DNA from: a virus | Virus record (IMG/VR): IMGVR_UViG_3300025137_000014 | Span: 1-64,000 of that record | Reading direction: 5' to 3' (one strand) | Length of the DNA: 64,000 bases | Notes under the pieces: model-generated | Seen by the model: only the letters and a program-made list of their open reading frames with translations | Database searches by the model: none | Told to the model about the DNA's origin: nothing | Translations under genes and position numbers: made by a program | Part shown: piece after piece, positions 11,787 to 32,874 of the stretch | How the letters are laid out: each line of letters opens with the position of its first letter | Numbering within the stretch: position 1 is the stretch's first letter

Positions 11787-11812
11787 AGTATGTAGTTAAT
11801 AGAGAATTATAT

Positions 11813-16116: not shown

Positions 16117-17007
16117 CTACACCTGTTCATAATACCATTCATACGTTTTAGCGAATGCTTCTTCCATTGAAAATTTAGGAACCCAACCTAACTCTTTTAA
16201 ACGTGTATTGTCAATCGCTCTATTCTTAATTCCTTCAGGTCTATCAGTATTAAACCATAAGTTACCTTTGTATCCACTAACTTTAATTAGTAATTCAGCA
16301 ATCTCTCTAATAGATATCTCATACCCACTTGCTACGTTGACTGTATCGTATTTGTCATTATTTAAAATTATATCCATTCCTGAAACTGCATCTTCAATAT
16401 AAAGTATATCTCTGCTTTGATTTCCAGAACCCCATATCTCAATGCTATCTGTATTATTCTTACATGCATCTACAAACTTCTGCATCAACGCACCGATTAC
16501 ATGAGCATGTTCGCCTGTTCTGTCATGTGGTCCAAACATGTTTGTGTTTATCGCTGTACGCCAATTGGTATCATACTTTTCATTACTTGCTCTACACTGA
16601 TACATTCCCATTAGCTTAGGCAAAGCAGTTGGGAAATATGTAGCATAAGGTTCACCTTGAAGTAGTTGTGTTTCTTTATAAGGTTGATTTCCTATCTCAG
16701 GATAACTACACGTGCTTCCTTGTAATAATACTCTATCTGTTTTTGCAACATGACATGCTTCAAATATATTATTTTGAATTGTTAGGTTCTTAATCATTAA
16801 TTCAAAACTCTTATCTAGGTCTTCTTGCAGTCCACCGACAGTAGCGGCATTTATAACGACATGTGTATGTTTCAATTTGATATCTTGCTTAGTTGAGATA
16901 TTAGATGTGAAGTCTACATTCTGTGTATTGCCTCCTTCTGCATCTGGTATTAATTTCTTATACCATGTGCCTACAAGTCCTCTATCTCCTGCTATATAAT
17001 ATTTCAT
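16117..17007 (-). CDS. GDP-L-fucose synthase-like SDR
   Basis: 296 residues. GDRGLVG (7-13) is the nucleotide-binding loop, GSTCSYP (97-103) holds the Ser and Cys equivalents of GDP-fucose synthase, and FGPHDRTGEHAHVIGAL has the His and the substrate loop typical of WcaG. It should convert GDP-4-keto-6-deoxymannose to GDP-fucose or act on a similar sugar. Oddity: the catalytic YxxxK reads EPYATYFPTALPK, so Tyr121 and Lys131 are ten apart and the residue four before Lys is Thr127. It is last in the radical SAM operon and overlaps the 1295-residue gene by one base. Confidence 0.8.
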   Translation of the reverse strand: MKYYIAGDRGLVGTWYKKLIPDAEGGNTQNVDFTSNISTKQDIKLKHTHVVINAATVGGLQEDLDKSFELMIKNLTIQNNIFEACHVAKTDRVLLQGSTCSYPEIGNQPYKETQLLQGEPYATYFPTALPKLMGMYQCRASNEKYDTNWRTAINTNMFGPHDRTGEHAHVIGALMQKFVDACKNNTDSIEIWGSGNQSRDILYIEDAVSGMDIILNNDKYDTVNVASGYEISIREIAELLIKVSGYKGNLWFNTDRPEGIKNRAIDNTRLKELGWVPKFSMEEAFAKTYEWYYEQV

Positions 17008-20000
17008 TATTCTTTATCCTTATGTATTATAAAGTAATCATTCAATTCTGGAGTGGGACAATGTTTAGTTGACTTTGGTGTTTCGTGTCCTCTATGTGAA
17101 TTTTGCCAATGTGAGATATGTCCTACTTCTCCATCAAATCCTTCGAATGAAGAATACGCATATGGAAATGGTTGTATGACTGCGGAGCCACCTGGTTTTA
17201 ATTGTGTTAATATACAATCTACAAAGTGTTGTATGTCACTGCTTTCGAAAGGAGCAAAGAAAGTATTTCTATCTTTATTCTCATCAGTAATTTGCCAAGC
17301 CTGTGATATATTACCATTTACTAATCTAACAATCTTATCTGTTTTCCAAAATACATTTGACATATTCATAAGTATTATATCATATTTTTCATTAGGATCA
17401 AAGTCTTTTCCGTATGTGTGTTCTATATTATTAAGTAAATCAAAGTCTTTGCGTGGTTGTATATGTACATCTGCTGGTCTTACTATACCTAATGTATTCC
17501 AGACAAATTTAAGTTCATCTAACGAGTCGCCCGCTTCTTTATATGAGTTAGTAGAATATACATTAGTAAATCCTTCCTCTTTTAAAAAGTGTGGCATAAA
17601 ACCAAAATGTGTTCCTATATCTAAAATCTTAATATCTTTAGGTGCATAGTTTAAACCCAAGTTATCAAGTATCATAGAATGATTAACCCAATATGCAGAC
17701 TCTAAAGATGATTGCAAGTACTTAGAATGTTGAACAAGTTTTCTATTTAAAGATTTAAATTTTTTCTTATGTGTATCTTTAAATGTATCAAAGTAATTTT
17801 CAAACCTATAACCAATTCTACCAGTACTATATGGTTTTCTAAAACGCCAAGAACCAAATTCATTATAGTTTATAATATCCCAATGATAGTTATCATTAAC
17901 CCAATCTTTTTCTTCTTGAGTTAATTTACGTGGAGTATCAACTTTTTCTTCCTTTAATATTCTAGCAATATGTCTTGACGAATCTCTATGCCCAAACGTT
18001 CGGTGCCAATCCTTGCCTCGTTCATGATATCCTGTATTATGTATATCATCCATGTCTATCGTCCAAGCTACATTTAATCCATGTTGACTCGCACTTTGTT
18101 GTTGAAGTTCTTTCAAATCTTCTGGTTTATTAAAATCTTCACCCAGTATTTTACCTGTTGTCTCTAAAAATGATGCAAATCTTTTATGTGGATCTCTTGT
18201 AATTGCTATAGCAGGTATATCTTTTATGTTATCAAGATTTTTTTTATTAACTAATCTATAACCTAAATGAGGTGCTACTTTTTTAGCAACAGCTTTATCT
18301 AGTAATCCAACTGTAGGTATTATGATTGTGTTAGTATTCTCACTATACCAAACGTAGTTGTATATAGAATTGTGTGTCACATCGTCAAATTTGGCGTCCT
18401 CAAGCTGTGCTTTGTAGTCACCATTACTTAAAGATTCAAATGCACGTTTATATACTAATGGAGCATAAATATTTTTGTAATGATAGTAATTAAAATCAAG
18501 TACTTCTAGTAATGATTTATCATACTTCCATTCAGTACCATCTCTACGTAATTCAGTATAATCTACAATATTTTTAATTACTTTTGCTATCGCCTCTATA
18601 CGTTCAGCATAAGGCAATTCATCATATGATTCATCCCAATAGCCATCAAATGTTTTGAAGCCTAGATTTCTTAAGTTCTTAAGATAACCTTTATCGCCTA
18701 CAATAACGAATGGCTTTTTAGATAATATTGCTTGTGAAAGTTTTTCACTTATAGAAACATGCTCGTCACTAGATGTAAACTCTGTTATTAGTTCTAGGTA
18801 TGACCTTCTCCTATAAGGTAACATTTCTTCTAATCTATTTAAGGAAGACCCTGCTAACCATTCGTCCCGTGCATGTTGCATACTAAATGGTAATTCTTTT
18901 TTATAATACTCTCTAATAATTTCATCAGCTATGTCTTTGTTATATGAATAGCCGATACGTCCTTCAATAGACTGTATATCACTATCATATAACGGATCGC
19001 CTATACCGTAGTTATCTGTTCCTAAAAAACTATAGTAAGCATTATCTTTTATATTTGTATGATTTTCAATTAGCTTTGCTAATATATCAAGTCTATGGTT
19101 TCTAATTCTTTTATTAAGAAATAAGATATGTTTCTTAGAAATGTTAGCGATATCAAAGTTCCATTTTTCGTCATACTTATTTTCTATCTTGCCCTGTTCA
19201 TAGTCTGCAAAACGTAAGGTACTTGTTGATACAGTTAAGAATTCAACATCGCCTTCTACTTTTGTATCTTCAAACATTGTCCAGTATTTTACATTTTTAA
19301 CATTTTTCTTTTTAGAATAGAACTTGTTTATTTTTTCATAATAAGATATTGGTATAAGTTCTGCACCCATATCAAATATAATACATGCTTTTCCTTCTTC
19401 TAATTCTTTATTAATAGTTTTGTCTTTAATAGTTTTATCAATTAATTTATCAGTCAATGTAAGATAATCATATCCATCAAATTCGTCTTCACCAAAATGT
19501 TCCCATGCAATTAATGGAGATATAAAATAATACTTTTCAAATCTAACATCATCATGTATTTCGTCTATAAAGTTTTGATACATATCATAATGCTGAGGTT
19601 CTGCGTGTATCGTTTGTATTCTAGGCGAACGGTTAATCATCCATTTATTATAAAACATTCGGGGCATTATCTTTTCGGTCTTTCTCATACTTTGCATAGT
19701 AGCATTAAATTCTGTATTAGTTTCTTTTCCACAAAAGATTGAACATGTACGCAATCTTTTATTGTTAACGTTATTGTCTTTCCAATTATCAGGCCAGTGT
19801 TTCTGAAACATTGGGCCATTAATTATGTCTTCTAATTTAGTGTGTTCTAAACTTATTTTATCTCTACCAAAATCATTAATAAATTCTTGTAGCTGAGTTG
19901 TTTCTTCATCAGGGAAAGCGTATAGTTTACTTGCAGTCATACAACACGGAAATACTAATCCTTCACTAGTAACAAAAATACTTTTTGGTTTAATAACTAT

Positions 20001-20894
20001 GCAATCAATTTTAGTTTTACCCATCTTGACTTCGTGCGGAGTAAGTGGTCTATCTTTATCCCATTCATATTTATGGGTATAGGCTTCTTTACCAGAAGTT
20101 TTTGATTTAGTAAAATGTATTTCTTGTAAAATCTTTTCAGGATTGTCAGTATCATCTCCTTCAACTTTTTTAAAAGATGAGTTTGCAATATAAGTATTAA
20201 TCAATTCATTAGTATTACCATCAGACGGTGGATGTATATCGTAATCTTTTAATCCACGTTCATTAAATACTGCTAGTGTCGGTTGTGCTTTTCCTTCGTC
20301 ATTATTAACAAATCCTAATGCTTTTTTAGAATAGAACTCATGTATACCAATTTCTTTCGCTAACTGCTTTGCTTCTTCTACTTGGTGTTGATTATGTTTG
20401 AATACTAAGAACTCCCATCTGGCATGTCCACCACCTTTGATATAATTTTTCATAGCAGACATAATCTTAGACCAGTGTGTTCCTCGTCTATAAATCCAAT
20501 TAGTATTTTCTAGTCCGTCTACACTAAAAGTCATATGACCATTGGTGCCTATTATCTTGCCTAGTTCTTGCCAAAACTTTGGATTACGGCCACTGGCATT
20601 TGAATTCATAGTAATTTTAATATTTGGATTTATAGATTTTAGATATTTTAGAATATCAATAAGTTCTGGGTTAGTCATAGCATCACCATAATTTCCACAC
20701 AGTGACATTCCAAATAATTGTGCTAAAAATTTCTTATCGAAATACTTTTTGAATTGCTCTAACTTTACATAAGTTTCTTTGTATCTTGGATTCTTTCGAC
20801 CGCCCTGTTCTCTGCGATTACATACAGGACATAATGCATTACAAAGACTACTACTTTCGAAATCTAAATGTAATATCTCATCATGAGTGTACAT
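17007..20894 (-). CDS. Four-domain radical SAM/GT/sulfotransferase/methyltransferase fusion
   Basis: 1295 residues. 1-395: radical SAM domain with CNALCPVC (18-25), supplying Cys 18, 22 and 25, and C-terminal auxiliary-cluster cysteines (FPCCMT near 317-318; C384 and C388). About 580-790: a region with SEKLSQAILSKKPFVIVGDK and GFKTFDGYWDESYDE, a pattern of phage glycosyltransferase-like proteins. About 850-1010: sulfotransferase-like, with AITRDPHKRFASF (896-908) as the 3'-phosphate site. About 1068-1245: class I methyltransferase with ILDIGTHFG (1090-1098). Overlaps both neighbours by one base. Assembly of one modified product on one polypeptide is inference. Confidence 0.75.
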   Translation of the reverse strand: MYTHDEILHLDFESSSLCNALCPVCNRREQGGRKNPRYKETYVKLEQFKKYFDKKFLAQLFGMSLCGNYGDAMTNPELIDILKYLKSINPNIKITMNSNASGRNPKFWQELGKIIGTNGHMTFSVDGLENTNWIYRRGTHWSKIMSAMKNYIKGGGHARWEFLVFKHNQHQVEEAKQLAKEIGIHEFYSKKALGFVNNDEGKAQPTLAVFNERGLKDYDIHPPSDGNTNELINTYIANSSFKKVEGDDTDNPEKILQEIHFTKSKTSGKEAYTHKYEWDKDRPLTPHEVKMGKTKIDCIVIKPKSIFVTSEGLVFPCCMTASKLYAFPDEETTQLQEFINDFGRDKISLEHTKLEDIINGPMFQKHWPDNWKDNNVNNKRLRTCSIFCGKETNTEFNATMQSMRKTEKIMPRMFYNKWMINRSPRIQTIHAEPQHYDMYQNFIDEIHDDVRFEKYYFISPLIAWEHFGEDEFDGYDYLTLTDKLIDKTIKDKTINKELEEGKACIIFDMGAELIPISYYEKINKFYSKKKNVKNVKYWTMFEDTKVEGDVEFLTVSTSTLRFADYEQGKIENKYDEKWNFDIANISKKHILFLNKRIRNHRLDILAKLIENHTNIKDNAYYSFLGTDNYGIGDPLYDSDIQSIEGRIGYSYNKDIADEIIREYYKKELPFSMQHARDEWLAGSSLNRLEEMLPYRRRSYLELITEFTSSDEHVSISEKLSQAILSKKPFVIVGDKGYLKNLRNLGFKTFDGYWDESYDELPYAERIEAIAKVIKNIVDYTELRRDGTEWKYDKSLLEVLDFNYYHYKNIYAPLVYKRAFESLSNGDYKAQLEDAKFDDVTHNSIYNYVWYSENTNTIIIPTVGLLDKAVAKKVAPHLGYRLVNKKNLDNIKDIPAIAITRDPHKRFASFLETTGKILGEDFNKPEDLKELQQQSASQHGLNVAWTIDMDDIHNTGYHERGKDWHRTFGHRDSSRHIARILKEEKVDTPRKLTQEEKDWVNDNYHWDIINYNEFGSWRFRKPYSTGRIGYRFENYFDTFKDTHKKKFKSLNRKLVQHSKYLQSSLESAYWVNHSMILDNLGLNYAPKDIKILDIGTHFGFMPHFLKEEGFTNVYSTNSYKEAGDSLDELKFVWNTLGIVRPADVHIQPRKDFDLLNNIEHTYGKDFDPNEKYDIILMNMSNVFWKTDKIVRLVNGNISQAWQITDENKDRNTFFAPFESSDIQHFVDCILTQLKPGGSAVIQPFPYAYSSFEGFDGEVGHISHWQNSHRGHETPKSTKHCPTPELNDYFIIHKDKE

Positions 20895-22090
20895 TAAAAG
20901 TGTCCTTCGAATTCAGGTAAAAAGTCTAGTATGTTTTGTTTTCTAATCTCATCAAGATTTCTAGTATATTCTTTTGCTTTTTCCCATTTTTCTTTTCGGT
21001 CTGGCCCACCAAACATTTTTTTAAATTCTTGCATCTTCCATTCATCAAATACATTAGAAAACTTATTATGTATTGCATCACGCATTGCTTTAGGTAATAC
21101 TGCCGGAGATAATATATCAGGATCATATACGTAATTGTGGTGTACCCAAACACCATGTTCTCTATGGAAGTAATTATAAAAATCACCTAGTGTACTATAA
21201 TTCATCCAAGACACAGTTTGTGTTACATCAATCTCAAACCCTTCATTCTTTAATCTTAAGAAATTCTTTTCAACATCATTCCACTTTGTAGGATATCGAA
21301 TATAATGATTCCTATCACCTAAGTCATCAATACTACAACTTACTTTGACATGGTCAAACTTTCTCCATAAGTCTATAACTTTATCGTTCATATTAGTCAT
21401 GTTGATATTATACCAGAGTTTTATATCTGTTTTTCCTAAGTCAACAAGTCTCTCTAAGAATTTAAAATGTTCTTTAATTAATGTAGGTTCTCCGCCGTTG
21501 ATGTAAAATGTTTTTACTTTATCACAGTGTTGTAGCAAGTCATCCCAAAATCCCTCACGCTCAGGCCATCTAAAGCCTTCCATGGTATCATATGTTGTAA
21601 GTTTAAATGTAGTTTTCTTCTGTAGTGCATCATAATCATTACGCCATTTACTTGAACTTGCTGGATTGCAAGTACGACATGCAACATTACAAACATTACC
21701 TAATCTTAATTCAACAAACTCTAGTTGAACGTCTTTCATAAAGCCATCGCTATCAGTGGCGTCCCTAGCGACTTCTACAGTGTACTCAGGATAGTTTTTA
21801 ATTTCTTCTGTTCTTTTAGAAGCCATGCCTTTTGCTTCTTCTGAATAGCAACGCATACATGCTATAGGCTTTTTGCCGTCTAATACTTCTAGTCTTGCTT
21901 TTTTATAGCTTTCACTATTCATAGTATCAAACACAGTGTCACGATTAAGATTATAAAATCTATCACCATCACGTGAACTACTCAATGAATTGCGGTGGTC
22001 TGCAACACAACAATGTGTTACACCTCCATGCGGATGCGTGGCAAGATGTTGAAATAATAATGGGCAAAAAGTTTCGCTCACGATAACCAT
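20894..22090 (-). CDS. Radical SAM protein with N-terminal twitch-type cysteines
   Basis: 398 residues. Auxiliary cluster cysteines come first: C9, C27-C28, C78 and C81 (CMRC). The radical SAM motif CNVACRTC gives C134, C138 and C141, and INGGEP (198-202 region) binds the SAM amino group. This N-terminal-twitch arrangement is known in marine phages and bacteria but, as far as I know, without a proven reaction. Twitch or SPASM enzymes usually oxidise or crosslink peptides or sugars. Overlaps the 1295-residue gene by one base and the SGNH gene by 13. Confidence 0.85.
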   Translation of the reverse strand: MVIVSETFCPLLFQHLATHPHGGVTHCCVADHRNSLSSSRDGDRFYNLNRDTVFDTMNSESYKKARLEVLDGKKPIACMRCYSEEAKGMASKRTEEIKNYPEYTVEVARDATDSDGFMKDVQLEFVELRLGNVCNVACRTCNPASSSKWRNDYDALQKKTTFKLTTYDTMEGFRWPEREGFWDDLLQHCDKVKTFYINGGEPTLIKEHFKFLERLVDLGKTDIKLWYNINMTNMNDKVIDLWRKFDHVKVSCSIDDLGDRNHYIRYPTKWNDVEKNFLRLKNEGFEIDVTQTVSWMNYSTLGDFYNYFHREHGVWVHHNYVYDPDILSPAVLPKAMRDAIHNKFSNVFDEWKMQEFKKMFGGPDRKEKWEKAKEYTRNLDEIRKQNILDFLPEFEGHF

Positions 22091-22944
22091 CCTAGTTCTT
22101 TTAATTTTGTTTTTAGTATTTTGTTTGTGAATGCATAATACCCTGCTTGTGTACTATGACCATCTGGTGCTACGCCGTGTCCGCTGTTAACTGAATAATC
22201 TAGTATGCCTGTATCTATGTAATCAATATTAACTTTACTCAACGCTTGTTTTAATTTTGGTAATACTGATGGGTCAAAATTAAATGCATCTTCCCAACCA
22301 AATAATATTAGTAATTTATTATTAAAAGACTTGATTGCAGATAGTGTAGACAATATTACATGAAGTCTATATGGATCTGGTTCTGCGCCTTTGCCATGAA
22401 GTGAATATATATTTCTTGTTTGTGATAATGTTTTCTTACTTATATCGAACATGCCTGTACACGAAGGGTCAAACCCGTATATTTTCTTTTCAGTGAAGTG
22501 TTCATCTTCGATAACTTGAAAACATCCCCAATCTTTAACCTCATCTTTTTTATATGCACGTGCAAGTTCATTACCATAGAAATGAGAAGATTGTTGATTT
22601 ATAGGTATAGTAACCCTACCAGGGTTTGTTATCTGAAAAATTACTAAATCATCAGCATCAATCTTATCAGTTAGCATCAAGTTAGACCAAATAGCTATTT
22701 GAGAATCAAGCCCTGCTCCACTCATCGCATAGCTTTCCATATGTATATCATCAGAAGACCACTCGCATGGATTAAAATTATTGACTGCATTAATTCCTAT
22801 TTCTTTTGCAAGTCTCCAATCATCTTCTAAATCATTACGAAATGAAGTTTCTTCGCATTGGTCATTTAGCCAAAGCCAATGATGTTGTGCAGTGTGACTA
22901 CAACCAAATGCTCTAATTTTTATTTTGTCTTGTCCACCACTCAT
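22078..22944 (-). CDS. SGNH/GDSL-hydrolase-like protein
   Basis: 288 residues. IRAFGCSHT near the N-terminus is the SGNH nucleophile block, SGAGLDS the block II glycine, FQITNP the block III Asn, and GVAPDGHSTQAGY the C-terminal Asp-x-x-His pair. All four blocks can be seen, so catalysis (acyl transfer or esterase) is plausible. Its place between radical SAM genes, overlapping them by 32 and 13 bases, suggests it acts on the same product. No signal peptide. Confidence 0.7.
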   Translation of the reverse strand: MSGGQDKIKIRAFGCSHTAQHHWLWLNDQCEETSFRNDLEDDWRLAKEIGINAVNNFNPCEWSSDDIHMESYAMSGAGLDSQIAIWSNLMLTDKIDADDLVIFQITNPGRVTIPINQQSSHFYGNELARAYKKDEVKDWGCFQVIEDEHFTEKKIYGFDPSCTGMFDISKKTLSQTRNIYSLHGKGAEPDPYRLHVILSTLSAIKSFNNKLLILFGWEDAFNFDPSVLPKLKQALSKVNIDYIDTGILDYSVNSGHGVAPDGHSTQAGYYAFTNKILKTKLKELGWLS

Positions 22945-24313
22945 ATAATTCTGGATCCCTTTTATAGATATCTTCTAATCTAAATTGTTCTTGTCTGATT
23001 CGGTCTAATTCTTCTTGATAGTTTCTACCATTAAAAAATTGTTCTTCATGTGTCTCAGGCCATTGTTCTTCAAACGTTTGTCTATCCTTCATACCCTTCA
23101 ACGTATTTACTAGAGTTTGTTGCTTATGAGTAGCCTTTGGCTCAATATAAGCTAATAATTCATCTAAGTGTCTAGTTAATATATGCTTGGGCCATGCAAA
23201 CGGACTAAACACAATATCAGCATGAAAGGCAAACATAATCTTTGTTTCTATTCTTACATCTAATTCTAAACTCAAATCAAATAAATCTTTAATACTAAAC
23301 ATACCAGGACCAGTGATAGTCAAGTCAAATAACATTTTGTCTTTACCACCTGGTGCCGCTAGTCCTTTCTTAAAATTAGCTAACCACTCATCCCATACAA
23401 TGCCTTTACGAATAAACTCTACAATGTCACCTGTACCATCGATACTTGCACACATTAACCAGTCTTTAAACTGAGGTAGATAATCAAATAACTCCATGCC
23501 TTTAAACGTTGTACGAGATAAATTAGAGTTGTATCTTAAGTGACAATTCTTTGCAGAACCATTAGCGACCATTTCTTTTAATGCCCACCAATGTATATCG
23601 TACATAAGTGGCTCTCCACCTACCCAATATATTTCTTCTACTATACCATCACTAATTGCTTTCTTGAATTCTGGTTCAACAACTGTACGCTGAAACTTTA
23701 CCATCTTTTGTTTTACAGTTGGTTGCATAAATGGTTGATGTTCAATCGACCACATGTTGTGCTTTTTCTTTTCTGCTTCCCATGAACTTGATAATTGTTC
23801 ACCACACATACGACACTTGAAGTTACATAGATTAGAATAACGATAGTCAAATGATATTGTAGGCATTGATGTATGCCCATCATCATCTGTCTTATCAAAT
23901 GCTTCTTGTATCTTGTCTCTAAATAAAACTCCTGTAAACCATTTACGATATGAACTTAACGAGAGAATGTCATCATTACAAACATCACATTGTGGTATAC
24001 GTTCTCCTGACATTAGTTTCTTTCTAATATCTTTCATGTAAGGAGAGTTCCAATGTTCTGTTAATGATGAAGGGTTAAAGTCATCTGCATCTGTTTTAGA
24101 ATCTGTTACTTCGCCATATCTTTCATCGTTAGATGCATCAATATATTGTTTCTGAAATGAATGTTCTTCACGTGATGCACAACAAAGTCTACGCTCGCCT
24201 TGAGGAGATATATAGGTATGCGACCATGGCGCCATACAGAAAGTTTTGTTTTCACTTTCTTCTGCACAACTTCCGTCGCTTTTCCAAATAGGTATTATCT
24301 TTTTAGTTGTCAT
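22913..24313 (-). CDS. Radical SAM protein with N-terminal twitch-type cysteines
   Basis: 466 residues. N-terminal auxiliary cysteines: C26 in FCMAPWSH, C44-C45, then C109 and C112 (CDVC). Radical SAM CNFKCRMC gives C163, C167 and C170, followed by WVGGEPL (231-236). Same architecture as the gene at 20894 with a CC pair, so the two form one subgroup distinct from the HPP subgroup at 25049 and 26586. Overlaps the sulfotransferase-like gene by 11 bases. Substrate unknown. Confidence 0.85.
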   Translation of the reverse strand: MTTKKIIPIWKSDGSCAEESENKTFCMAPWSHTYISPQGERRLCCASREEHSFQKQYIDASNDERYGEVTDSKTDADDFNPSSLTEHWNSPYMKDIRKKLMSGERIPQCDVCNDDILSLSSYRKWFTGVLFRDKIQEAFDKTDDDGHTSMPTISFDYRYSNLCNFKCRMCGEQLSSSWEAEKKKHNMWSIEHQPFMQPTVKQKMVKFQRTVVEPEFKKAISDGIVEEIYWVGGEPLMYDIHWWALKEMVANGSAKNCHLRYNSNLSRTTFKGMELFDYLPQFKDWLMCASIDGTGDIVEFIRKGIVWDEWLANFKKGLAAPGGKDKMLFDLTITGPGMFSIKDLFDLSLELDVRIETKIMFAFHADIVFSPFAWPKHILTRHLDELLAYIEPKATHKQQTLVNTLKGMKDRQTFEEQWPETHEEQFFNGRNYQEELDRIRQEQFRLEDIYKRDPELYEWWTRQNKN

Positions 24314-25052
24314 CTAGTACTAAGACTCCGGTTTTACTATCGTACTGACGTTTACACAGTATAGATTCTTTAATTCTATCCTCGACTTCTGAGTAGTTTG
24401 TTATCAGATTTATTTTTTCTTCTTTTGATAATTGTTTTATAAGTCCTCTAGGATCATTATCGATATCAATAAGTTCATGTAATGTTTCATAAGGATAAAA
24501 ATGACAGTCATACTTAGACTTCATTTCTTCAACTGTTCTTGTATATGCTTGATATGATAAATCAAATATTTTAATAAGATGATTTACATGTTCTTTGGTC
24601 GCAGTAAAAGGTTCATATGATGCTTTTTCACGATTAGCAACAACCCAATTACCTGATTTCTGTGCGATAAGGAAGCTACATACTGTATCTAATATATCAT
24701 TTCTAAAACTAAAATGTAAATCAGTTACTTGCAGTCCTTGAAAAAATCTATGCACTTCCATAAAATTAAACTTATATAATCTTTCTGGATTATTTTCTTT
24801 ACTAGTTAATTTCATATTCTGTCGTAATCCACACATGATATGATATTTCATACACCATTCTTGTTCAGGATGTGTTACATTAATGTGTCTTAATTTTTTA
24901 AAATACATCATATATTCATCGTCATGTATTTCTGTCGATGGCAAGTCATGTTCATAAAATTCAAATGGCGGAGTGCATACGTTTGCCGCTATATGATTAC
25001 TGACAATCGTACTTCCGCTTCTTGCATTGTAGACTACTAAATGTCTCCTCAT
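24303..25052 (-). CDS. Sulfotransferase-like protein
   Basis: 249 residues. The N-terminal strand HLVVYNARSGSTIVSN is the 5'-phosphosulfate P-loop of sulfotransferases (RSGST), and HFSFRNDILDTVCSF near 114-127 matches the 3'-phosphate motif (RxDxxDxxxS). The size fits a minimal PAPS-dependent domain. It would move sulfate to a hydroxyl or amine of a glycan or small molecule. Together with the sulfotransferase-like part of the 1295-residue protein, it suggests a sulfated product. Overlaps both neighbours. Confidence 0.7.
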   Translation of the reverse strand: MRRHLVVYNARSGSTIVSNHIAANVCTPPFEFYEHDLPSTEIHDDEYMMYFKKLRHINVTHPEQEWCMKYHIMCGLRQNMKLTSKENNPERLYKFNFMEVHRFFQGLQVTDLHFSFRNDILDTVCSFLIAQKSGNWVVANREKASYEPFTATKEHVNHLIKIFDLSYQAYTRTVEEMKSKYDCHFYPYETLHELIDIDNDPRGLIKQLSKEEKINLITNYSEVEDRIKESILCKRQYDSKTGVLVLDDN

Positions 25053-26596
25053 TCAACTTTTACTCCTCCTAGTGCATCATTTTCAGTGTCCCAACCACCA
25101 ACTTTTTCGTGAGCATCGTCACCTCCTTCATAGTCTTTTGTAGTGGCTGGGTCACCTGCTCTGTCGCTTATTTTGAATACTAATTCTTTATTCAAGATTT
25201 GTTCTTTGCTTGGTGATTCTGCTTCTAATGTATCGTACCAATCTGCAATAGGTCCCTTGAATACTTCTCTGAAATTGTGTCCTCTTCGAACATCAAACTG
25301 AGAAAAGAATGCTTTAAAATCATTATATAGCTTTGGAGTTTCTGCTGTATTTTTATGAGGTGTTTTGACAATATCAAGATAGTCAATCAATCTTTGTATA
25401 CTTGCTTTTTCGCCTTCAGATAACTTTTCTTGTGGACGTTTTGTTTTGAACCATGTGTCAAGTTTATCTTTATAGAAGTTCTTTACATCTATTGGTAAGA
25501 TTGCCGCACTTTGAAAAGAAGGGAAACGTAAAATGTTTAACGTCATAGTAGGCGCCCGTTGTCCGTATTCTTCACGTAGGTCTAACATTTCATCCATAAA
25601 ATCTGTGATAGTAACAAGACACAATGAATTGATAGTCATCATCATATGTAGTTTTGCTACGTTTGATTCTTTTAATACACGATGTATATTATTCTTCCAT
25701 AAGTCGTAATCTAATCCATCACGTATATATTCTGCTTGGTTTTTAGTTGCTTCCATTGAAGTGTATATTTCAAAGTTCGGAACATGCCAAGACTTTTGAA
25801 TTAGTTTGTCTAATACTTTTGGTTTCTCAGGAGACAAGTTAGAGTTGATAGCAAAACGCATATTACGTCCTCTATCTGGATTCTGTTCAAACCAATCAAA
25901 CAATCTCCATGTACCTCTATGCATAATAGGTTCACCACCAGTGATACGAATTTCTTCTAAACAATCTGCTAAGTCACTTTCCCACCATTTGTGAAATGCT
26001 TGAATATATGGGTTGTCTTCTTCTTTCTTTGTTTTAGGTGCCGCCCAAGGAGCAGTATCAAGGAAGTGTCCTCTACCATCTGATTGTATATTTTGATATC
26101 CACCATATGTATTGATATCTTTAACCCATGCGGTTGAGAATGCAGGATTACAATATGAACACTTAAGATTACATGCCCTATCAAATGAGATTTCAAGTGT
26201 ACGTAAGTTTACGTTATCGTCCCATGGCATTTCCATGCTCTTGTCAATATCTTCATCTTTAAATATTTCAGTTTTGAATACACGGTCAGATATATGATCC
26301 TTGCCCATGTCTTCAACTTTCCAACAGTATTCACATTCGGCTGGTCGTTTGCCTTCTTGCATATGTTTACGCATAAGTTTCTTATGCTTTGTATTATGAA
26401 TTGCTGAAGGATTGTCTTTGATTTCTTCAAGTGGGATCCAATGTCCTGGTGGGTGGTGACAACTAGCCGTCTGGCCATGTCCTAACCAGATAGTAGCATT
26501 ATACCATTTAGACGCACAATAACTAGCACTCTTGCTATCTATCATACGTTCTTTATATTGATGGAGAGTTTCGCCCTCCCAGTGTTTACGACCCAT
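25049..26596 (-). CDS. Radical SAM protein, N-terminal twitch, HPP subgroup
   Basis: 515 residues. C27, then C46 in SCHHPPGH, then CEYC (88-91) form the N-terminal auxiliary set. CNLKCSYC gives C142, C146 and C149, and ITGGEPI follows at 218-224. It closely parallels the 522-residue neighbour in motif order and spacing (HPP, IPLEE, HNT, RP..C.YCW), so the pair arose by tandem duplication. A single Cys replaces the CC pair of the other subgroup, implying different cluster ligation. The substrate is unknown; the overlap with the next gene is 4 bases. Confidence 0.85.
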   Translation of the reverse strand: MGRKHWEGETLHQYKERMIDSKSASYCASKWYNATIWLGHGQTASCHHPPGHWIPLEEIKDNPSAIHNTKHKKLMRKHMQEGKRPAECEYCWKVEDMGKDHISDRVFKTEIFKDEDIDKSMEMPWDDNVNLRTLEISFDRACNLKCSYCNPAFSTAWVKDINTYGGYQNIQSDGRGHFLDTAPWAAPKTKKEEDNPYIQAFHKWWESDLADCLEEIRITGGEPIMHRGTWRLFDWFEQNPDRGRNMRFAINSNLSPEKPKVLDKLIQKSWHVPNFEIYTSMEATKNQAEYIRDGLDYDLWKNNIHRVLKESNVAKLHMMMTINSLCLVTITDFMDEMLDLREEYGQRAPTMTLNILRFPSFQSAAILPIDVKNFYKDKLDTWFKTKRPQEKLSEGEKASIQRLIDYLDIVKTPHKNTAETPKLYNDFKAFFSQFDVRRGHNFREVFKGPIADWYDTLEAESPSKEQILNKELVFKISDRAGDPATTKDYEGGDDAHEKVGGWDTENDALGGVKVE

Positions 26597-28154
26597 ATTT
26601 GCTCTCGTATTCTTCCTTAGCTTCGTTCCAGAAAGCAGTCATTTCAGGAAATGTTTCTAAAAAGTTTAATCCCCTACGTTTATCATATTGTGAAAAATAT
26701 TCATGAAACCGTATTAATTGACTACTTAATTCATCATCACTCATATTTAGCCCTTCTTTGGCCCATGCCAAATCACGCTCAAGTTTTAATACTTCGTAAT
26801 TCTTAAATCCTGTATACTTTCTGCCATATAAATCATTCTCTAATACATTGGCTTTCATAAAATCAATGTTATCTTGTATCATGTCTAGTAATTCTTGGTC
26901 TGCTAGTTGTATTGTCATCCAATCAGGATATCTTAAATACGGAATATCAAACCAAACTCTTTGACGTTTCTTTCTTACAAATGGTGGGTGTTTAAAACCA
27001 TGATGGTCAGGCGGTTGAATTATTTTATCTTCTTGATTTTCATATCCAAATTCTTCACGTAAGTCTAATATCATTTGCAAGAACCCACGTAGATTTGTGA
27101 TACTTAATAACTGAAATGTATTGATAAAAGAAATTTCTGTACCATCAGTTTCACTTAACACTCTACGACAATTCTCATATAGTGTATCAAAGTTTAAACC
27201 GTCACGCATATATTCTGCTTGTTTACCTACACCATCAACACTTACATACAAACTAAAGTGTTTACATGCTGGTGCAACATACCAGTGATTACCGCTATCA
27301 GGATTGAAACGTTTTGGATCTTCCCATACACGAATTTTTTCTAATGCTTGTATCTTTTCAATAAACTTATCCATTAACTTAGGACTTGGAGGTGACATGT
27401 TTGACGTAATACTTAAATCAAGAAAAGGATTAGGGTTCTCGTTAACATAGTCAAATACTTTGAATGTATTATTATCCATAAGAGGCTCACCGCCTGTCAT
27501 ACGAAATACTTTCAAGTCTCTGTATATCTGTGGAAACCATTCCCAAAATGCTTCAATGTAAGGATTGTCTTTACGTGCTACTTCAAGTGGCATAAGACCT
27601 GTCTTACGTAAGTAATCAATGTTGTTATGACCAGTGCCGTTAGAGAACTTAAAGTCACCATGCTTCTTAATATCATCTTCCCACGCTGTACTCAAGTGAG
27701 GTGAGCAATAGCTACACTTTAGATTACATGCTTGATTGAAGTTTACTTCTACATAGCGTGGAGTGATATTATGGTCAAAGTCATTGTTTACAACTTCGTC
27801 CCAAGCATCTTTAACCCACCATTCACTTGAACGATAATGTCTGTCACTAAGTCTGCCGCCTTCGGGGGCATCAGGAGCGTCTTCGACATTCCAGCAATAC
27901 TGGCAACCTTCAGGACGGGTGCCGCATTTCATTTGCTTTCTTTCTTCTAGTTTGAATGTGGTGTTGTGTAATGCATTAACATCTTTCTTAAGTTCTTCTA
28001 AAGGAATAGGATGTGTCGGTGGATGATAACAACTATGAGTACGCCCTTGAGGCAGATGCAAACTTACTTGCAACCATTTAGCCATACACATAGATGGCGA
28101 AAGAGAATTTAACTTTTCTTTAGTTGCTTGTGCATCATCATCATAGTTTGCCAT
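26586..28154 (-). CDS. Radical SAM protein, N-terminal twitch, HPP subgroup
   Basis: 522 residues. C23, C42 (SCYHPPTH), CQYC (84-87), the radical SAM motif CNLKCSYC (C143, C147, C150) and MTGGEPL (219-225). Tandem paralogue of the 515-residue gene with an 11-base overlap. Compared with it, it has about 25 extra residues in the loop after SNMSPPSP and an extended C-terminal part with PPDHHGFKHPPF. It sits six bases after the glycosyltransferase gene. Function unknown. Confidence 0.85.
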   Translation of the reverse strand: MANYDDDAQATKEKLNSLSPSMCMAKWLQVSLHLPQGRTHSCYHPPTHPIPLEELKKDVNALHNTTFKLEERKQMKCGTRPEGCQYCWNVEDAPDAPEGGRLSDRHYRSSEWWVKDAWDEVVNNDFDHNITPRYVEVNFNQACNLKCSYCSPHLSTAWEDDIKKHGDFKFSNGTGHNNIDYLRKTGLMPLEVARKDNPYIEAFWEWFPQIYRDLKVFRMTGGEPLMDNNTFKVFDYVNENPNPFLDLSITSNMSPPSPKLMDKFIEKIQALEKIRVWEDPKRFNPDSGNHWYVAPACKHFSLYVSVDGVGKQAEYMRDGLNFDTLYENCRRVLSETDGTEISFINTFQLLSITNLRGFLQMILDLREEFGYENQEDKIIQPPDHHGFKHPPFVRKKRQRVWFDIPYLRYPDWMTIQLADQELLDMIQDNIDFMKANVLENDLYGRKYTGFKNYEVLKLERDLAWAKEGLNMSDDELSSQLIRFHEYFSQYDKRRGLNFLETFPEMTAFWNEAKEEYESKYGS

Positions 28155-28160
28155 TAGAGT

Positions 28161-29138
28161 TTATTTGTCCCAACCGGTTTGCTTCTCTGTTGCTAGTGGA
28201 TTATTAACTCTTGGTGGATTAGTATATACTCGTTTGAAAAATGAGGCTACTTCTGGAGTTGGATCACATAGTTCCATATCCATCTTATCTACTAAGATAT
28301 CACCGGTTTCTAAACATGCATCAAATAGTTTTTCATAATTCCATTCTAGTTTTGTTTTTTCACACTTCATATCTCCGCCTTGAAATTTAGGAAATACTGT
28401 ATTATCAAAGTACTCTTTAAACCAGTCAAAGCTAGAAATGTTTGCTAAGACAAAATCAGGGTTAAGATTTGTATCATAACAACCTAATCTTGCACCATAA
28501 CATGCCCATATACCATTCTCTACGTTTGCCCCAATATTCATCCAAGTAATCAGACGTTCATAATTTTTAGGCCATATACGTTTTTTAAATTCATCTACTG
28601 GTACTTTCTTGCCTTCATCAAGTGACATTTTAGAACCTTCACGATAACCTGCACGAAAGGCTTGAAATGGGGATCCGGCATTATGTACTGTAGAATAAAT
28701 ATTATTCATCTGAATATAATTTAAGTCCCAACAAAAATCTACTTTCTTTGTTTCGTCTACTGCGTTTTCATGTGTCTTCATATCTAATACAAGTTGTACT
28801 GGCCAGCATTTAATGCCTCCATTACCATATACTAGACCGTTAACTACGTTCTTTGCAGACCAACTAATAACTGAATTAACTAAATCAGTTCCATCTGGGA
28901 ATGTTAATTCGATATCAAAAAACTTTTCATCTACGATATTATCACCATCAATAGTAATAAATCTGTCTGTATCACTCTGTCTTGCACACTCTTTGTGTGC
29001 ATTATCAAATCCTTTTACACCATCTACTCTTTTTGCAAATGGAAATTTGCTTATAATATCTGCCCAATGTTCTTCTTTGTTAGGCTCATCGTAACTTAGA
29101 TAAAATACATCTAACTCACCGATTTCTAGTTTGCTCAT
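28161..29138 (-). CDS. GT-A-type glycosyltransferase-like protein
   Basis: 325 residues from ATG 29138, which lies five bases from AGGAGG; the adjacent ATG at 29141 is also possible. DVFYLSYDEPN at the N-terminus and FITIDGDNIVDEKFF (the DxD metal motif near residue 65) fit a GT-A fold, and the middle has WxxNY and conserved Trp-rich segments seen in phage glycosyltransferase-like proteins. Donor and acceptor unknown. Confidence 0.65.
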   Translation of the reverse strand: MSKLEIGELDVFYLSYDEPNKEEHWADIISKFPFAKRVDGVKGFDNAHKECARQSDTDRFITIDGDNIVDEKFFDIELTFPDGTDLVNSVISWSAKNVVNGLVYGNGGIKCWPVQLVLDMKTHENAVDETKKVDFCWDLNYIQMNNIYSTVHNAGSPFQAFRAGYREGSKMSLDEGKKVPVDEFKKRIWPKNYERLITWMNIGANVENGIWACYGARLGCYDTNLNPDFVLANISSFDWFKEYFDNTVFPKFQGGDMKCEKTKLEWNYEKLFDACLETGDILVDKMDMELCDPTPEVASFFKRVYTNPPRVNNPLATEKQTGWDK

Positions 29139-29731
29139 CATGTCCTCCTGAATGAATATGTTTCTAAATACTTCTGTGTATATAAACTTATACTGTATTT
29201 ATTATATTCGAATTTAACCTTAGTCTCAGTACTCAATAGTTGTCCGAACGGAATAGATACTGTTTGTATGATAAAATCTGGTCTATTTTCATATGTTATA
29301 AAAAAAGGGTGATGAGTTTTGCCTGCAACTGTAACATTTTGATGTTTGTCTACATTTGCATTCTTTCTAACCTTTTTACTAGGAGAGAAGCATAGTTCTG
29401 AACCATCCCATGTTACTTCTATATCACAATATTTTGTATCTGATAGTTTATATAACTGAGAATCTTTACTTCTTTGTTTGATATCTACTTTAGACTTTAT
29501 GATTTCATAAACAAAGATATCATCTGTGCTTACTACCTTATAGTCTGAAAATTTATAATCGCCTGTTAAAAAAGGCAGAATAGCCTCTATTGTGAACCAA
29601 GTACTCTTAAGTAGTGGGTTTGAGTCTTCTGAATGCCTAGATGCAATACTATGTATATCGCCTGCATCATTGAAGAATACTACTCTTGAATTCTTAGTTT
29701 CATGTGTGAACCCGGTGCTTAATATTTTCAT
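29138..29731 (-). CDS. Unknown protein in radical SAM operon
   Basis: 197 residues, beta-rich, with no cofactor motif. Notable pieces are GFTHETKNSRVVFFNDAGD and KTHHPFFITYENRPDFIIQ. It has no signal peptide. It overlaps both flanking glycosyltransferase genes by 4 bases. It is one of only two genes in the operon with no recognisable enzyme motif, so it is a candidate substrate carrier or accessory protein for the radical SAM enzymes (inference). Confidence 0.7.
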   Translation of the reverse strand: MKILSTGFTHETKNSRVVFFNDAGDIHSIASRHSEDSNPLLKSTWFTIEAILPFLTGDYKFSDYKVVSTDDIFVYEIIKSKVDIKQRSKDSQLYKLSDTKYCDIEVTWDGSELCFSPSKKVRKNANVDKHQNVTVAGKTHHPFFITYENRPDFIIQTVSIPFGQLLSTETKVKFEYNKYSISLYTQKYLETYSFRRT

Positions 29732-30585
29732 ATATCTAGTGCCTTTTCATACATATTAATTTTTTCTTGTGTTAGCCAGTTCTTTTCAACGTAATGAAAA
29801 GGAAGTGACTGTTCGTAGTTTGCTACACGAATTTTTAAATCATCTGACATGCTACTTGGTATACTATCTGTCCAAATGCCAGATATTTTATTATTAGGAA
29901 TATTTTGAATGTAACTTTTCATGTGTACAAATGTTGGTACATCTTTAATATCATTATCAATAACTTCTTCTTCTAAATCTAATAAACGTATAGCTAATGC
30001 ATATGCCAAGTCTGCACTCATCCAGGTCTGTCCTGTTCCTTTAAGAAATTTATCATAATACACATTCCAATGAACCATAATCAATTCAATCATTTTAAAC
30101 AATTCAAAACTTGTATCAGATTCTTTAAAATAAGTCATGTTACTATATACATTAGGTAATTCTAATTGTGTAAATTTTTTACGATAGTAATCGTCTTCTA
30201 CTAATTCGTTTCTAAATGTCTTAACATGTGTACAAGCCCATACATCTTTTTTAGATAAATGATCCCACCAATGGTCAACAGGATGTGTAAATAAAACATC
30301 AGTATCAAGAATGATAGTTTCTTTAAATGGTGTCATGTGTGGATACTTCCACTTATTATGAATTTTCCATTCATCTGCACCTGCATCATCATTCCATGGG
30401 ATATCAACGATATGGTCAAACACTTCTTTGTGTTTTCCAGTGAGTTGTGTTTTAGTATATTCGTCAACGCATACACAAATCGCATTTTCTTTCTGTGTAG
30501 CTTTAAGCGACAATGCCAAAGCATAAGCCTGATTAAGATAATCATACTTACTATTCTGGGCTATAGCAATGTATCCCCTACTCAT
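29728..30585 (-). CDS. DxD glycosyltransferase-like protein
   Basis: 285 residues. The N-terminus GYIAIAQNSKYDYLNQAYALALSLK and ILDTDVLF (D94, D96) follow the GT8-like/GT-A layout. WKYPHMTPFKETIILDTDV resembles the family of glycosyltransferases common in marine T4-like phages. Overlaps its neighbours by 4 bases each. It could glycosylate the virion, the host surface or DNA; DNA is less likely as no hydroxymethylase is seen here. Confidence 0.7.
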   Translation of the reverse strand: MSRGYIAIAQNSKYDYLNQAYALALSLKATQKENAICVCVDEYTKTQLTGKHKEVFDHIVDIPWNDDAGADEWKIHNKWKYPHMTPFKETIILDTDVLFTHPVDHWWDHLSKKDVWACTHVKTFRNELVEDDYYRKKFTQLELPNVYSNMTYFKESDTSFELFKMIELIMVHWNVYYDKFLKGTGQTWMSADLAYALAIRLLDLEEEVIDNDIKDVPTFVHMKSYIQNIPNNKISGIWTDSIPSSMSDDLKIRVANYEQSLPFHYVEKNWLTQEKINMYEKALDI

Positions 30586-31451
30586 AGAGTATCTCCTTGC
30601 GCCAATAGTGTATCTATATTGCGTTCTATTGCAGATTTATTCATAATGTGTATATCTGTATTTGTAAATCTAGCTAACACATGTTCTATTGTTTTATCAG
30701 GTTTAGCACAATACATTATAATATCATTACTGCTATTAACTCTAAAAATATCATCTAAATCAAAACTATTGTTTAGATAATCAATAGGCAACGATGGTAC
30801 TTCGCATGCCACTTGCCCATTTAAAATATGAACAGCCATTGAAAATGCAAAATCGTTCCTAAATAATGTACCTGAACAATTATACAAATAGTAATAGTAC
30901 TTATAATTTTCTTTTATATGACTAACTAACGTAAATAAATTTTCAGTGTATTCAGATTTTTTAAAATAGAAAACTGTTGCCCAATACATCGGTATGGAGA
31001 AATCATCAATATAGGATATGTTACCGCCATGTCTACCAGCAACATCCCTATATTGACAATTAATCATGAAGTCGTTTTCACTACCCCATACTTGGTCAAG
31101 TGTGTTACTCATTACAAAGTAATCACAATCGATAACCAAACTTTCTTCGTAAGGTGAGAGGTCATATACGTCACTACGAGACATATTGACAAAAGGAGCA
31201 TACTGCGATTGTCCAGCAGTATCCTTGAATAGTCTTATATTACTATCCTGTTTTGATGCGGAAATAATAGTTCTATCGAAATACTTGTTTACTAATTCTT
31301 CGTTATCTAATAAAGATTCGTTATTAGTAACTAAAGCAATTTCATCAAAGCCTGATAGATTCTTTCTGACATAACCTGCACACGTACATGCAATTTTTAT
31401 GTAATCTAGTAACCCATTATTTGTTGCAAAGATTATAATTCCTTTGCTCAT
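30582..31451 (-). CDS. DxD glycosyltransferase-like protein
   Basis: 289 residues. The Rossmann-like start GIIIFATNNGLLDYIKIACTCAG and LVIDCDYFV (D108, D110) indicate a GT-A metal motif, and the second half has GGNISYIDDFSIPMYWAT. It is a divergent paralogue of the gene at 29728. It overlaps the upstream unknown gene by one base, so translation is coupled. Confidence 0.65.
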   Translation of the reverse strand: MSKGIIIFATNNGLLDYIKIACTCAGYVRKNLSGFDEIALVTNNESLLDNEELVNKYFDRTIISASKQDSNIRLFKDTAGQSQYAPFVNMSRSDVYDLSPYEESLVIDCDYFVMSNTLDQVWGSENDFMINCQYRDVAGRHGGNISYIDDFSIPMYWATVFYFKKSEYTENLFTLVSHIKENYKYYYYLYNCSGTLFRNDFAFSMAVHILNGQVACEVPSLPIDYLNNSFDLDDIFRVNSSNDIIMYCAKPDKTIEHVLARFTNTDIHIMNKSAIERNIDTLLAQGDTL

Positions 31452-31831
31452 TAGATTTCCAGAACCTTCTCAATCTTACGTGAACTACGTAACTTTTGAT
31501 AATCATTATAGTATTCATTGATAACTTCGAAATACAAACTAGAAATATCTTCTAAGAATTTCGTAGTATCTTCAAGTTTAATTGGAATGTCGTTCTTATC
31601 AAGCAGGATGACTTCTGTTTTGCCTGCATCAACAATAGTACTCATAAATCCAATTAATTCTTGTGACACTTTAAATGTACCACCATTACTACTATAGTTC
31701 AGTAAATTTTGTGTTTTAACTTTTAAGTTGTTTTTATTAAGATTGAAAGTCTGCATAGTGTTTGAAAACTCTAATGCTCTTTCTAGCCGTTCAAGTTCGG
31801 TACTTGAAGGCGTAATATTTTCTTTTGACAT
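31451..31831 (-). CDS. Unknown helical protein, first gene of radical SAM operon
   Basis: 126 residues from the ATG at 31831, which has AAGGAG eight bases upstream; the ATG at 31864 lies upstream of the expected transcription start. Mostly helical with a central beta part (GGTFKVSQELIGFMST... KTEVILLDKND) and a basic C-terminus. No enzyme motif. It directly follows the minus-strand sigma70-like promoter. Not recognised. Confidence 0.7.
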   Translation of the reverse strand: MSKENITPSSTELERLERALEFSNTMQTFNLNKNNLKVKTQNLLNYSSNGGTFKVSQELIGFMSTIVDAGKTEVILLDKNDIPIKLEDTTKFLEDISSLYFEVINEYYNDYQKLRSSRKIEKVLEI

Positions 31832-31855: not shown

Positions 31856-31884
31856 ATAATACAAGAAAATAGGCTGTTTGTCAA
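31856..31884 (-). promoter_or_regulatory. Sigma70-like promoter of the radical SAM operon
   Basis: On the minus strand TTGACA (31884-31879), a 17-base spacer and TATTAT (31861-31856), 25 bases before the ATG at 31831. The spacer lacks GANTC. It overlaps the end of the structural operon, so the accessory operon can be read early from here and late by read-through. Confidence 0.8.
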
Positions 31885-31887
31885 GCC

Positions 31888-32841
31888 TTAAAGTTCAGAA
31901 ATGTGTGAAAATGTTGGAGATCCTACTACAACGCCTAAACCAGATACATCTTGGTCATCTGCACGTAGTATATCTACCTGAATTGCTAGAGTTCCTGCTA
32001 CATAATCTGTAATATTGAACTCACTTGTAGTATATGCATCGTAGAATTCTAGTTTAATATCTATAGCATTGCTACCATTTAATCTAGCATGTACTTCAAA
32101 TTTGTTATTTGTATAGTAACCGGAACTGCCATCACCGCCTGTCTTTTCATATATCTTTGCATATGATGAAGTTAGTGATGTAAATCCTCCAGCTGGAGTG
32201 CCTACACCACCTGTAGATTCTATTACATTATGACTGAGTTTCAATATACCAACGTTTGTGAACATTGTTGCCCAATCTGTGCTTTGTTTATGCGAAACGT
32301 CAACGCCAGTTAGTGAGGTATCTAGTCTTATATCTCCGCCAGAGTTAAAGAAATGTCTTCGGTCATCTGAGTTTGCAAATATAGTTGAAAATTCATAGAA
32401 TACATTTCCTGACCAAGTATGAACTGCGCCAGCACCCGGAACGTCATATGTCTTAGATGATGAAATCTTATTTGATTCCGCAGTCATTTGAGCGATATCG
32501 AAATTTAGTTTGTTAGAACGTACAGTCGAAATATCTACTTCTAAGTCTGGAATGATTTCTATTAGTTGACCTGCAGTTGGGAAATCAGGGTCACTGCTAT
32601 CTAACGGTGAGTTAATAGTAGTGCCCTGATGTCTGCCTGCGTATTTAAGAGCAGTTAGGAGTAACTGCATGTGAGAAGCATTAACTATAGTCCCACTTGT
32701 TACGTGAGGGATTACGAGTTGGTCTTGGCCATAACCAGAGTCGCCCGCTCCAATTCCAACAATTTCGTTTATATCATCTGCGAAACCGTTATAATCGGAT
32801 GCTCGTATCTTTCCTCCTAAGTAGTAACTTTGTGGTGCCAT
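31888..32841 (-). CDS. Virion protein, tail fibre/baseplate type
   Basis: 317 residues. The N-terminal YYLGGKIRASDYNGFADDINEIVG and the central DDRRHFFNSGGDIRL, followed by a Ser/Thr-rich beta domain, match the family of structural proteins at the baseplate/fibre locus of marine T4-like phages. It is a paralogue of the next gene (WFSAGGEIRV in the same place). Last gene of the minus-strand structural operon, ending just before the accessory-operon promoter. Confidence 0.7.
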   Translation of the reverse strand: MAPQSYYLGGKIRASDYNGFADDINEIVGIGAGDSGYGQDQLVIPHVTSGTIVNASHMQLLLTALKYAGRHQGTTINSPLDSSDPDFPTAGQLIEIIPDLEVDISTVRSNKLNFDIAQMTAESNKISSSKTYDVPGAGAVHTWSGNVFYEFSTIFANSDDRRHFFNSGGDIRLDTSLTGVDVSHKQSTDWATMFTNVGILKLSHNVIESTGGVGTPAGGFTSLTSSYAKIYEKTGGDGSSGYYTNNKFEVHARLNGSNAIDIKLEFYDAYTTSEFNITDYVAGTLAIQVDILRADDQDVSGLGVVVGSPTFSHISEL

Positions 32842-32874
32842 CTTATTAACCTATCTCTTTTCATGTTAGAAAAC

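Follow-up and report, generated by a model that had tools for sequence, protein, structure and literature searches.

The virus record IMGVR_UViG_3300025137_000014 of IMG/VR (187,122 bases), from a large marine phage, carries within its first 64,000 nucleotides, which constitute the window analysed here, an operon of 13 genes on the minus strand that runs from position 31831 down to 16117 and encodes five radical S-adenosylmethionine (rSAM) proteins, namely R8, R7, R5, R3 and R2, together with putative glycosyltransferases (GTs) and a putative sulfotransferase. A first-pass annotation of the sequence had coordinates and strand right and gave twelve genes, its own inventory summing to the 13 counted here. 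The junctions from g13 to g01 are overlaps of 1, 4, 4 and 4 bases, a gap of 6, and overlaps of 11, 4, 11, 32, 13, 1 and 1, in agreement with the overlaps of 1–32 bases and the single 6-base gap first described.

The rSAM proteins and their companions

All five rSAM proteins predicted initially stand, since each contains the CxxxCxxC motif and is detected by the Pfam model Radical_SAM (three above cut-off in the genome search and two in a single-protein scan). Four of them, R3, R5, R7 and R8, are members of NF033640 (N_Twi_rSAM in NCBIfam, cut-off 170 bits) with scores of 298–362 bits, and possess N-terminal Cys cluster ligands upstream of CxxxCxxC. R2 is a non-member, and R7 and R8, far over the NF033640 cut-off, are under that of Pfam Radical_SAM. 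To our knowledge, no reaction has been assigned to the NF033640 family. In R2, a SPASM-type rSAM part (residues 1 to ~400) is followed on its C-terminal side by a 900-residue extension comprising a transferase-like region (~400–800), a sulfotransferase-like motif (~870–1000) and a methyltransferase-like region (~1080–1180); Pfam recognises Radical_SAM (E 9e-8), SPASM (E 0.003) and Methyltransf_23 (E 0.06), the middle and sulfotransferase-like regions being defined by motif only.

The other proteins are assigned at different levels of resolution. Two sulfotransferase-like modules had been proposed, of which that in R2 remains a motif and that in g06 is strengthened by a predicted fold. The g06 family has an invariant RxGxT near residues 11–15 (5′-phosphosulfate-binding loop, 5′-PSB) and R117/S126 (3′-phosphate-binding site, 3′-PB), and the best PDB match of its AlphaFold2 model (predicted local distance difference test, pLDDT, 88) is Stf0 (Foldseek prob 1.00, E 3.8e-4, template modelling score, TM, 0.45); the 5′-PSB loop, the R...S of the 3′-PB and the predicted fold are together those of a sulfotransferase dependent on 3′-phosphoadenosine 5′-phosphosulfate (PAPS), with no sequence-level match in Pfam. 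The three GTs with a D-x-D motif are retained as candidates of unequal quality. The g11 profile matches glycogenin-2 of family GT8 weakly (E 0.003), D94 and D96 being invariant; g12, for which there is no direct family match, is linked to GT8 only through the g11 family (hhalign 99.6%, E 8.6e-24); and nearly all top PDB folds for the g09 model (pLDDT 84) are GT-A glycosyltransferases or nucleotidyltransferases, at a TM of ~0.3, for which reason GT-A is only a lead for g09. Searches of PDB sequences with g09 and g06 found nothing. The predicted SGNH protein, g04, is recognised by its motif and has no match in the Pfam scan. Regarding g01, the short-chain dehydrogenase/reductase (SDR) assignment holds and the likeness to GDP-fucose synthase is limited: it scores 221 bits against the Fcl model NF047922 (cut-off 500), and reads PTALPK at the place expected for the usual YxxxK dyad, so that GDP-L-fucose synthase was rejected as a firm name in favour of a divergent SDR. 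The two proteins listed as unknown are g13 and g10; family searches with g13, whose window copy is devoid of Cys, gave no credible match.

The operon is headed by a near-consensus, sigma-70-type promoter-like site, the top-scoring of 92 in the region with 11 of 12 matches. Nearly all relatives have such a site at the same place, matching at 10–12 of 12 positions with a spacer of 17 or 18 bases; clear exceptions are the loci L090 and L082, the latter with a different gene order. Because the site is kept while its flanks have diverged, the operon is probably a transcription unit of its own and not merely read through from the tail genes; the putative terminator between n1 and g13 is a weak hairpin only. 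The co-directional block probably extends to a DegT gene, the candidate last gene, 45 bases past g01 on the same strand. Early or late timing cannot be told from the promoter, because similarly strong sites occur throughout the phage (39 sites with 11–12 matches in the whole record versus ~11 expected from a crude shuffle, located before open reading frames, ORFs), and a timing drawn from it was rejected. A search for a late promoter of the T4 type gave nothing, the motif TATAAATA being depleted in the window (one match versus 12.3 expected). An Rfam search of 14–36 kb found nothing.

Operon genes, in order of transcription, and adjoining features of the window
Feature	Position	Strand	Description
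g13	31451..31831	-	Small conserved protein, 126 amino acids (aa), first operon gene; alignment of 30 relatives
g12	30582..31451	-	GT8-like glycosyltransferase (remote assignment), 289 aa; D-x-D 108-110
g11	29728..30585	-	GT8/glycogenin-like glycosyltransferase (weak match), 285 aa; D-x-D 94-96
g10	29138..29731	-	Least conserved core gene, 197 aa; other proteins take its place in distant phages
g09	28161..29141	-	Probable GT-A fold transferase, 326 aa; conserved core gene
R8	26586..28154	-	N-terminal-twitch radical SAM; NF033640 E 1.4e-88, 298 bits; CxxxCxxC at 143
R7	25049..26596	-	N-terminal-twitch radical SAM; NF033640 E 3.4e-91, 306 bits; CxxxCxxC at 142
g06	24303..25052	-	Sulfotransferase (predicted Stf0-like fold)
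R5	22913..24313	-	N-terminal-twitch radical SAM; NF033640 E 4.7e-99, 332 bits
g04	22078..22944	-	SGNH/GDSL-like hydrolase or acyltransferase (motif only); N-terminal 'FGCSHT'
R3	20894..22090	-	N-terminal-twitch radical SAM; NF033640 E 3.4e-108, 362 bits
R2	17007..20894	-	SPASM-type radical SAM, multidomain protein, 1295 aa
g01	16117..17007	-	Extended SDR akin to GDP-fucose synthase; Pfam Epimerase E 3e-31
Promoter-like site	31856..31884	-	Sigma-70 type, TTGACA-17-TATTAT; lies between n1 and g13 (gap of 56 bases)
n1, n2, n3	31888..34519	-	Virion (tail-region) proteins; upstream of the operon in most relatives
DegT	14998..16071	-	DegT/DnrJ/EryC1-type sugar aminotransferase; Pfam E 3.5e-64
Divergent sugar-gene block	9221..15010	+	Cytidylyltransferase-like (by motif)/cupin, FG-GAP protein, cupin, sugar C-methyltransferase, possible sulfotransferase, SDR epimerase

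Conservation among phages and in Bdellovibrionota

The phage relatives derive from one IMG/VR scan with R8, which gave 79 loci (phages with the GTs and without R8 lie outside this sample); dropping loci with R8 of at least 95% identity left 43 distinct phages, window included. Co-occurrence in related phages, the check that the first-pass annotation had set for its dedicated pathway, is found and is ordered: g13, g12, a GT8-like gene and g09 stand immediately before R8 in 35 of the 38 distinct phages with sufficient upstream sequence (29 of these 35 also having n3), and at least three further rSAM genes lie within 8.5 kb in 22/29 phages with sufficient downstream sequence. The fixed core consists of g13, the two GT8-like enzymes, g09 and the N-twitch enzymes R8, R7, R5 and R3. 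The genes between the rSAM genes vary from phage to phage, and the region is a hypervariable cassette zone in relatives; the accessory genes that are exchanged there are of sulfotransferase, SGNH, methyltransferase, exostosin-like and SDR type. The g06 slot is occupied in relatives by other sulfotransferase-like genes, the slot near R3 by genes of SGNH-like or exostosin-like type and that of g04 by other SGNH-like proteins, all by motif. Proteins over the NF033640 cut-off number 13 in the related records G005 and G011, 12 in G010 and 11 in G004.

The operon rSAM genes and g09 are under strong purifying selection. Simple pairwise estimates of the ratio of non-synonymous to synonymous substitution rates (dN/dS), with dS close to saturation for L056, are 0.04–0.08 for the rSAM genes, ~0.04–0.06 for g09, 0.08–0.20 for n1–n3 and up to 0.5 for g06. 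Among phage rSAM proteins of >380 aa, CxxxCxxC is present in 159/159 members of the R7/R8 cluster, 96/96 of R5 type and 29/29 of R3 type, and the upstream N-terminal Cys in 159/159, 68/96 and 29/29, respectively. Since clustering recurs in dozens of phages under such selection, and R5–R3 pairs recur in bacteria, a chance gathering of five rSAM genes was rejected. A tblastn search of INPHARED phages with R8, g09 and g12 found nothing.

Relatives also carry genes for carbamoyltransferase, nucleoside diphosphate (NDP)-sugar dehydrogenase, nucleotidyltransferase, SIS, pentose-phosphate epimerase and GDSL proteins, and the larger phage arrays those for carbamoyltransferase, a B12-binding-type rSAM protein, an Asp/Asn hydroxylase-like protein, TauD and nitroreductase. 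Both in phages and in one Bdellovibrionota genome, carbamoyltransferases of the NodU/CmcH type adjoin rSAM genes (L105:13029-14540 and L150:1-1636 by Pfam, L094:1579-3045 by similarity). Near another N-twitch rSAM gene (locus L123), a P-loop protein resembling adenosine 5′-phosphosulfate (APS) kinase is encoded at G000 178603-178863; it matches half of the profile with 29 bits and could be a PAPS supplier.

The same enzymes are found in bacteria. NF033640 proteins occur in 30/114 Bdellovibrionota genomes, often in several copies, and in a tree of 93 proteins R8, R7, R5 and R3 each group with their own Bdellovibrionota orthologue, the R8 join being the least supported. All four core orthologues lie within ~8 kb on one chromosome (G017), a four-gene rSAM operon is present in G268, and R8–R7 pairs are adjacent in L151 and L156. 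A survey of 369 Bdellovibrionota genomes gave a strong R5 (at least 413 bits) in seven and a strong R3 in six, in all six of which R3 adjoins R5; GDSL genes also adjoin R5 in this phylum. Because both R8–R7 and R5–R3 pairs adjoin in these bacteria, the core rSAM enzymes are predicted to work together and, as judged by their orthologues, are not restricted to phages. Identity to Bdellovibrionota proteins is 46–50% for R7 and 47.5% across 240 aa for g09, and some phage array proteins are 60–70% identical to bacterial ones, which shows that genes either passed between these phages and Bdellovibrionota or reached both from a common source. A GTDB scan with R3, using two short peptide patterns only and leaving other phyla possible, retrieved three loci, all from Bdellovibrionota. 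Several bacterial loci lie amid genes of the surface-sugar type (carbamoyltransferase, GDSL, MobA-like nucleotidyltransferase and DPM1-like GT2). Integrase genes stand beside two of the bacterial rSAM loci (L103:17755-18864 and L148:17294-18391, the latter by sequence), which suggests mobile islands. QueC-like PP-loop proteins with 29% identity are encoded in a phage array (L106:6222-6878) and in a bacterial one (L103:8204-8965, the one recognised by Pfam). Ordered co-occurrence in phages and the neighbouring core orthologues in Bdellovibrionota lend good support to the idea of a dedicated pathway.

Within the window, the operon follows a minus-strand tail module, whose genes encode a tape-measure-like protein, the hub of the baseplate, a baseplate wedge protein (with RaK2/CBB-type jumbo myoviruses as best relatives) and a 2944-aa virion protein, then n3 (which matches phrog_11259) and the paralogues n2 and n1. 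Two more NF033640 proteins are encoded at 89.8 and 180.9 kb of the record, and one other rSAM protein at 125 kb. At window positions 62306-62911 (+), an SDR-like protein is 40% identical to an SDR encoded at L103:7507-8094 in an rSAM array of Bdellovibrionota, and array-type genes therefore occur outside the operon too. Two additional SGNH-like ORFs lie at 5045-7301 (-), one of which, of 422 aa, has relatives in L066 and L069 that lie within rSAM clusters. Small ORFs at 8863-9246 and 7373-7765 (+) are, by eye, candidates for proteins like S-adenosylmethionine decarboxylase and peptidyl-tRNA hydrolase 2.

Nature of the product

On balance, we lean towards reading the operon as a self-contained unit for the biosynthesis of an unusual surface glycan by multi-step sugar remodelling. 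That the product is an unusual glycan or glycoconjugate had been proposed at the outset, and we still infer it from the company of the genes: in this phage they stand with GT8/GT-A and NDP-sugar enzymes and a sulfotransferase, and in relatives with genes for carbamoyltransferase, NDP-sugar dehydrogenase and a nucleotidyltransferase. A sugar substrate is favoured because this company recurs in three settings, i.e. the present phage group, Bdellovibrionota and Vibrio phage K566 (see below). In such a pathway, the GTs would build up a short oligosaccharide or charge a carrier with sugars, after which R8, R7, R5 and R3 would act in turn on the sugar residues via C–H abstraction by the 5′-deoxyadenosyl radical; each residue could thereby be dehydrogenated, epimerised, deoxygenated or rearranged. 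Finishing the glycan would fall to the sulfotransferase and SGNH enzymes, and the flanking DegT, SDR and C-methyltransferase genes would provide a rare NDP-sugar. The finished product may alter a cell-type surface glycan of the host, for which there is a slight preference, or be placed on the virion.

Several observations weigh against this interpretation. We know of no rSAM substrate for the N-twitch family, g09 and g12 can be assigned to GTs only remotely, and the canonical SDR dyad is missing from g01. Among the operon proteins scanned, no polymerase, flippase, initiating transferase or ABC exporter was recognised, and their make-up is not that of an O-antigen or capsule synthesis cluster. 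Several Bdellovibrionota copies stand alone, with no sugar genes adjacent (L148, L152–L154). Vibrio phage K566 is a distant relative, with 23–27% rSAM identity to the window operon, and its PagP is the record's own annotation, with no Pfam match.

The destination of the glycan is the first point at which another explanation competes. It is conceivable, if somewhat unlikely, that the glycan is meant for the virion (tail fibres or whiskers) instead of the host envelope, and there changes adsorption or hides the particle. The core module comes right after tail-region genes in most distinct phages, distant lineages included, and GTs stand beside tail fibres in the host recognition clusters of pelagimyophages (PMC7029224); this constant tail-gene neighbourhood speaks for the virion side. 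However, the conserved promoter-like site sets the operon apart from the tail genes, the cellular homologues have no virion context and the K566 cluster is near PagP and LpxC instead, so that the envelope side is favoured both by K566 and by the copies in cells.

The substrate itself could be proteinaceous, the rSAM enzymes modifying a ribosomal peptide or a phage protein (e.g. n1/n2 or g13/g10) as in pathways of ribosomally synthesized and post-translationally modified peptides (RiPPs), with the GTs and the sulfotransferase acting on the same protein. SPASM/twitch rSAM enzymes are often peptide-modifying, as are most of those with known substrates; the operon rSAM proteins distantly resemble peptide maturases such as SkfB and PapB-type models, and the operon is usually downstream of tail genes. 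However, junctions of -32 to +6 bases leave no room for a precursor gene, which makes a peptide substrate less likely, and the isolated rSAM loci of Bdellovibrionota have no common non-rSAM neighbour. On these grounds, a RiPP cluster was rejected as first choice. A virion protein of the phage is not a likely direct rSAM substrate, given that these enzymes also occur in cells, where no virion genes accompany them. The chances of a peptide- or protein-modifying system are low.

A poorer candidate for the product is a diffusible small molecule, or else a modified lipid, made in the manner of a secondary metabolite. Multi-rSAM lipid pathways exist, and the gene content of the larger phage arrays given above, from carbamoyltransferase to nitroreductase, would suit such a product; against it stand the GT-rich core, the NDP-sugar enzymes that flank the operon and the fact that no thiolation, ligase or polyketide genes were recognised in it. 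Finally, it is very improbable that the rSAM proteins have nothing to do with one another, each having a substrate of its own, and came together because the region tolerates insertions, despite the hypervariable cassette zone of relatives and the rSAM cassettes that distinguish two pelagimyophage clusters (PMC7029224), as the core rSAM order is fixed and under strong purifying selection and the same pairs are adjacent in bacteria.

Beyond the surface glycan favoured for this operon, a broader proposal is made tentatively, namely that marine phages and Bdellovibrionota share, and exchange, an undescribed class of biosynthetic system whose paralogous N-twitch rSAM enzymes (four in the core and as many as 13 per phage record where arrays have expanded) work as a relay that remodels a surface glycan stepwise. 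If true, radical chemistry would be the main tool of glycan diversification in these phages and bacteria. New radical sugar chemistry may come to light in the module, as may a way in which phages alter surfaces, and NF033640, a large family without assigned reaction, becomes a set of ordered and testable pathways.

Relation to known systems

At the level of single proteins, R3, R5, R7 and R8 resemble the NF033640 family in having the radical SAM Cys motif together with the N-terminal Cys set, and the predicted g06 fold is like that of the trehalose 2-sulfotransferase Stf0 (PDB 1tex), with 17% identity. At the level of clusters, the papers found in the open-access literature (subscription papers and preprints excluded) gave no account of the ordered rSAM module, of its promoter or of its sharing with Bdellovibrionota. 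In the earlier papers found, rSAM genes of marine phages appear only as scattered genes or as auxiliary genes related to iron–sulfur (Fe-S) clusters, whereas here they form a conserved module headed by a promoter-like site, with orthologous pairs in bacteria. For instance, the passage available on the marine T4-like phage TARA_ERS488813_N000010 reports 12 radical SAM genes, tied to Fe-S assembly (PMC5332604). This uncultivated marine phage is similarly rich in rSAM genes, noted there as Fe-S proteins; in contrast to the present case, the genes are counted, and that passage gives no operon, GTs or pathway (PMC5332604).

Vibrio phage K566 (OZ196521) has a looser cluster with N-twitch rSAM genes interleaved with GT8 and GT4-like genes. 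Genes 0303–0309 and 0322 encode five N-twitch rSAM proteins (two above the NF033640 cut-off and three below it, at 135–154 bits), two GT8 proteins and one GT4-like protein. The difference lies in the surroundings, as no relatives of n1–n3 were found among the genes checked, and an LpxC homologue (Pfam E 1.3e-40) and the annotated PagP follow directly after the rSAM/GT8 cluster instead (L158 24718-25984). K566 may serve as a cultured test case.

A further parallel in the literature is the host recognition cluster of pelagimyophages, which is hypervariable, lies beside tail fibres and contains GTs, mostly GT8, and some radical SAM cassettes, the latter constituting the difference between two pelagimyophage clusters (PMC7029224). 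Pelagimyophages are another lineage, whereas the window phage has a RaK2-like baseplate, a fixed rSAM core, its own promoter-like site and cellular orthologues. The module may be grouped with phage surface-glycan clusters, and there is a real chance that it represents a new class of pathway.

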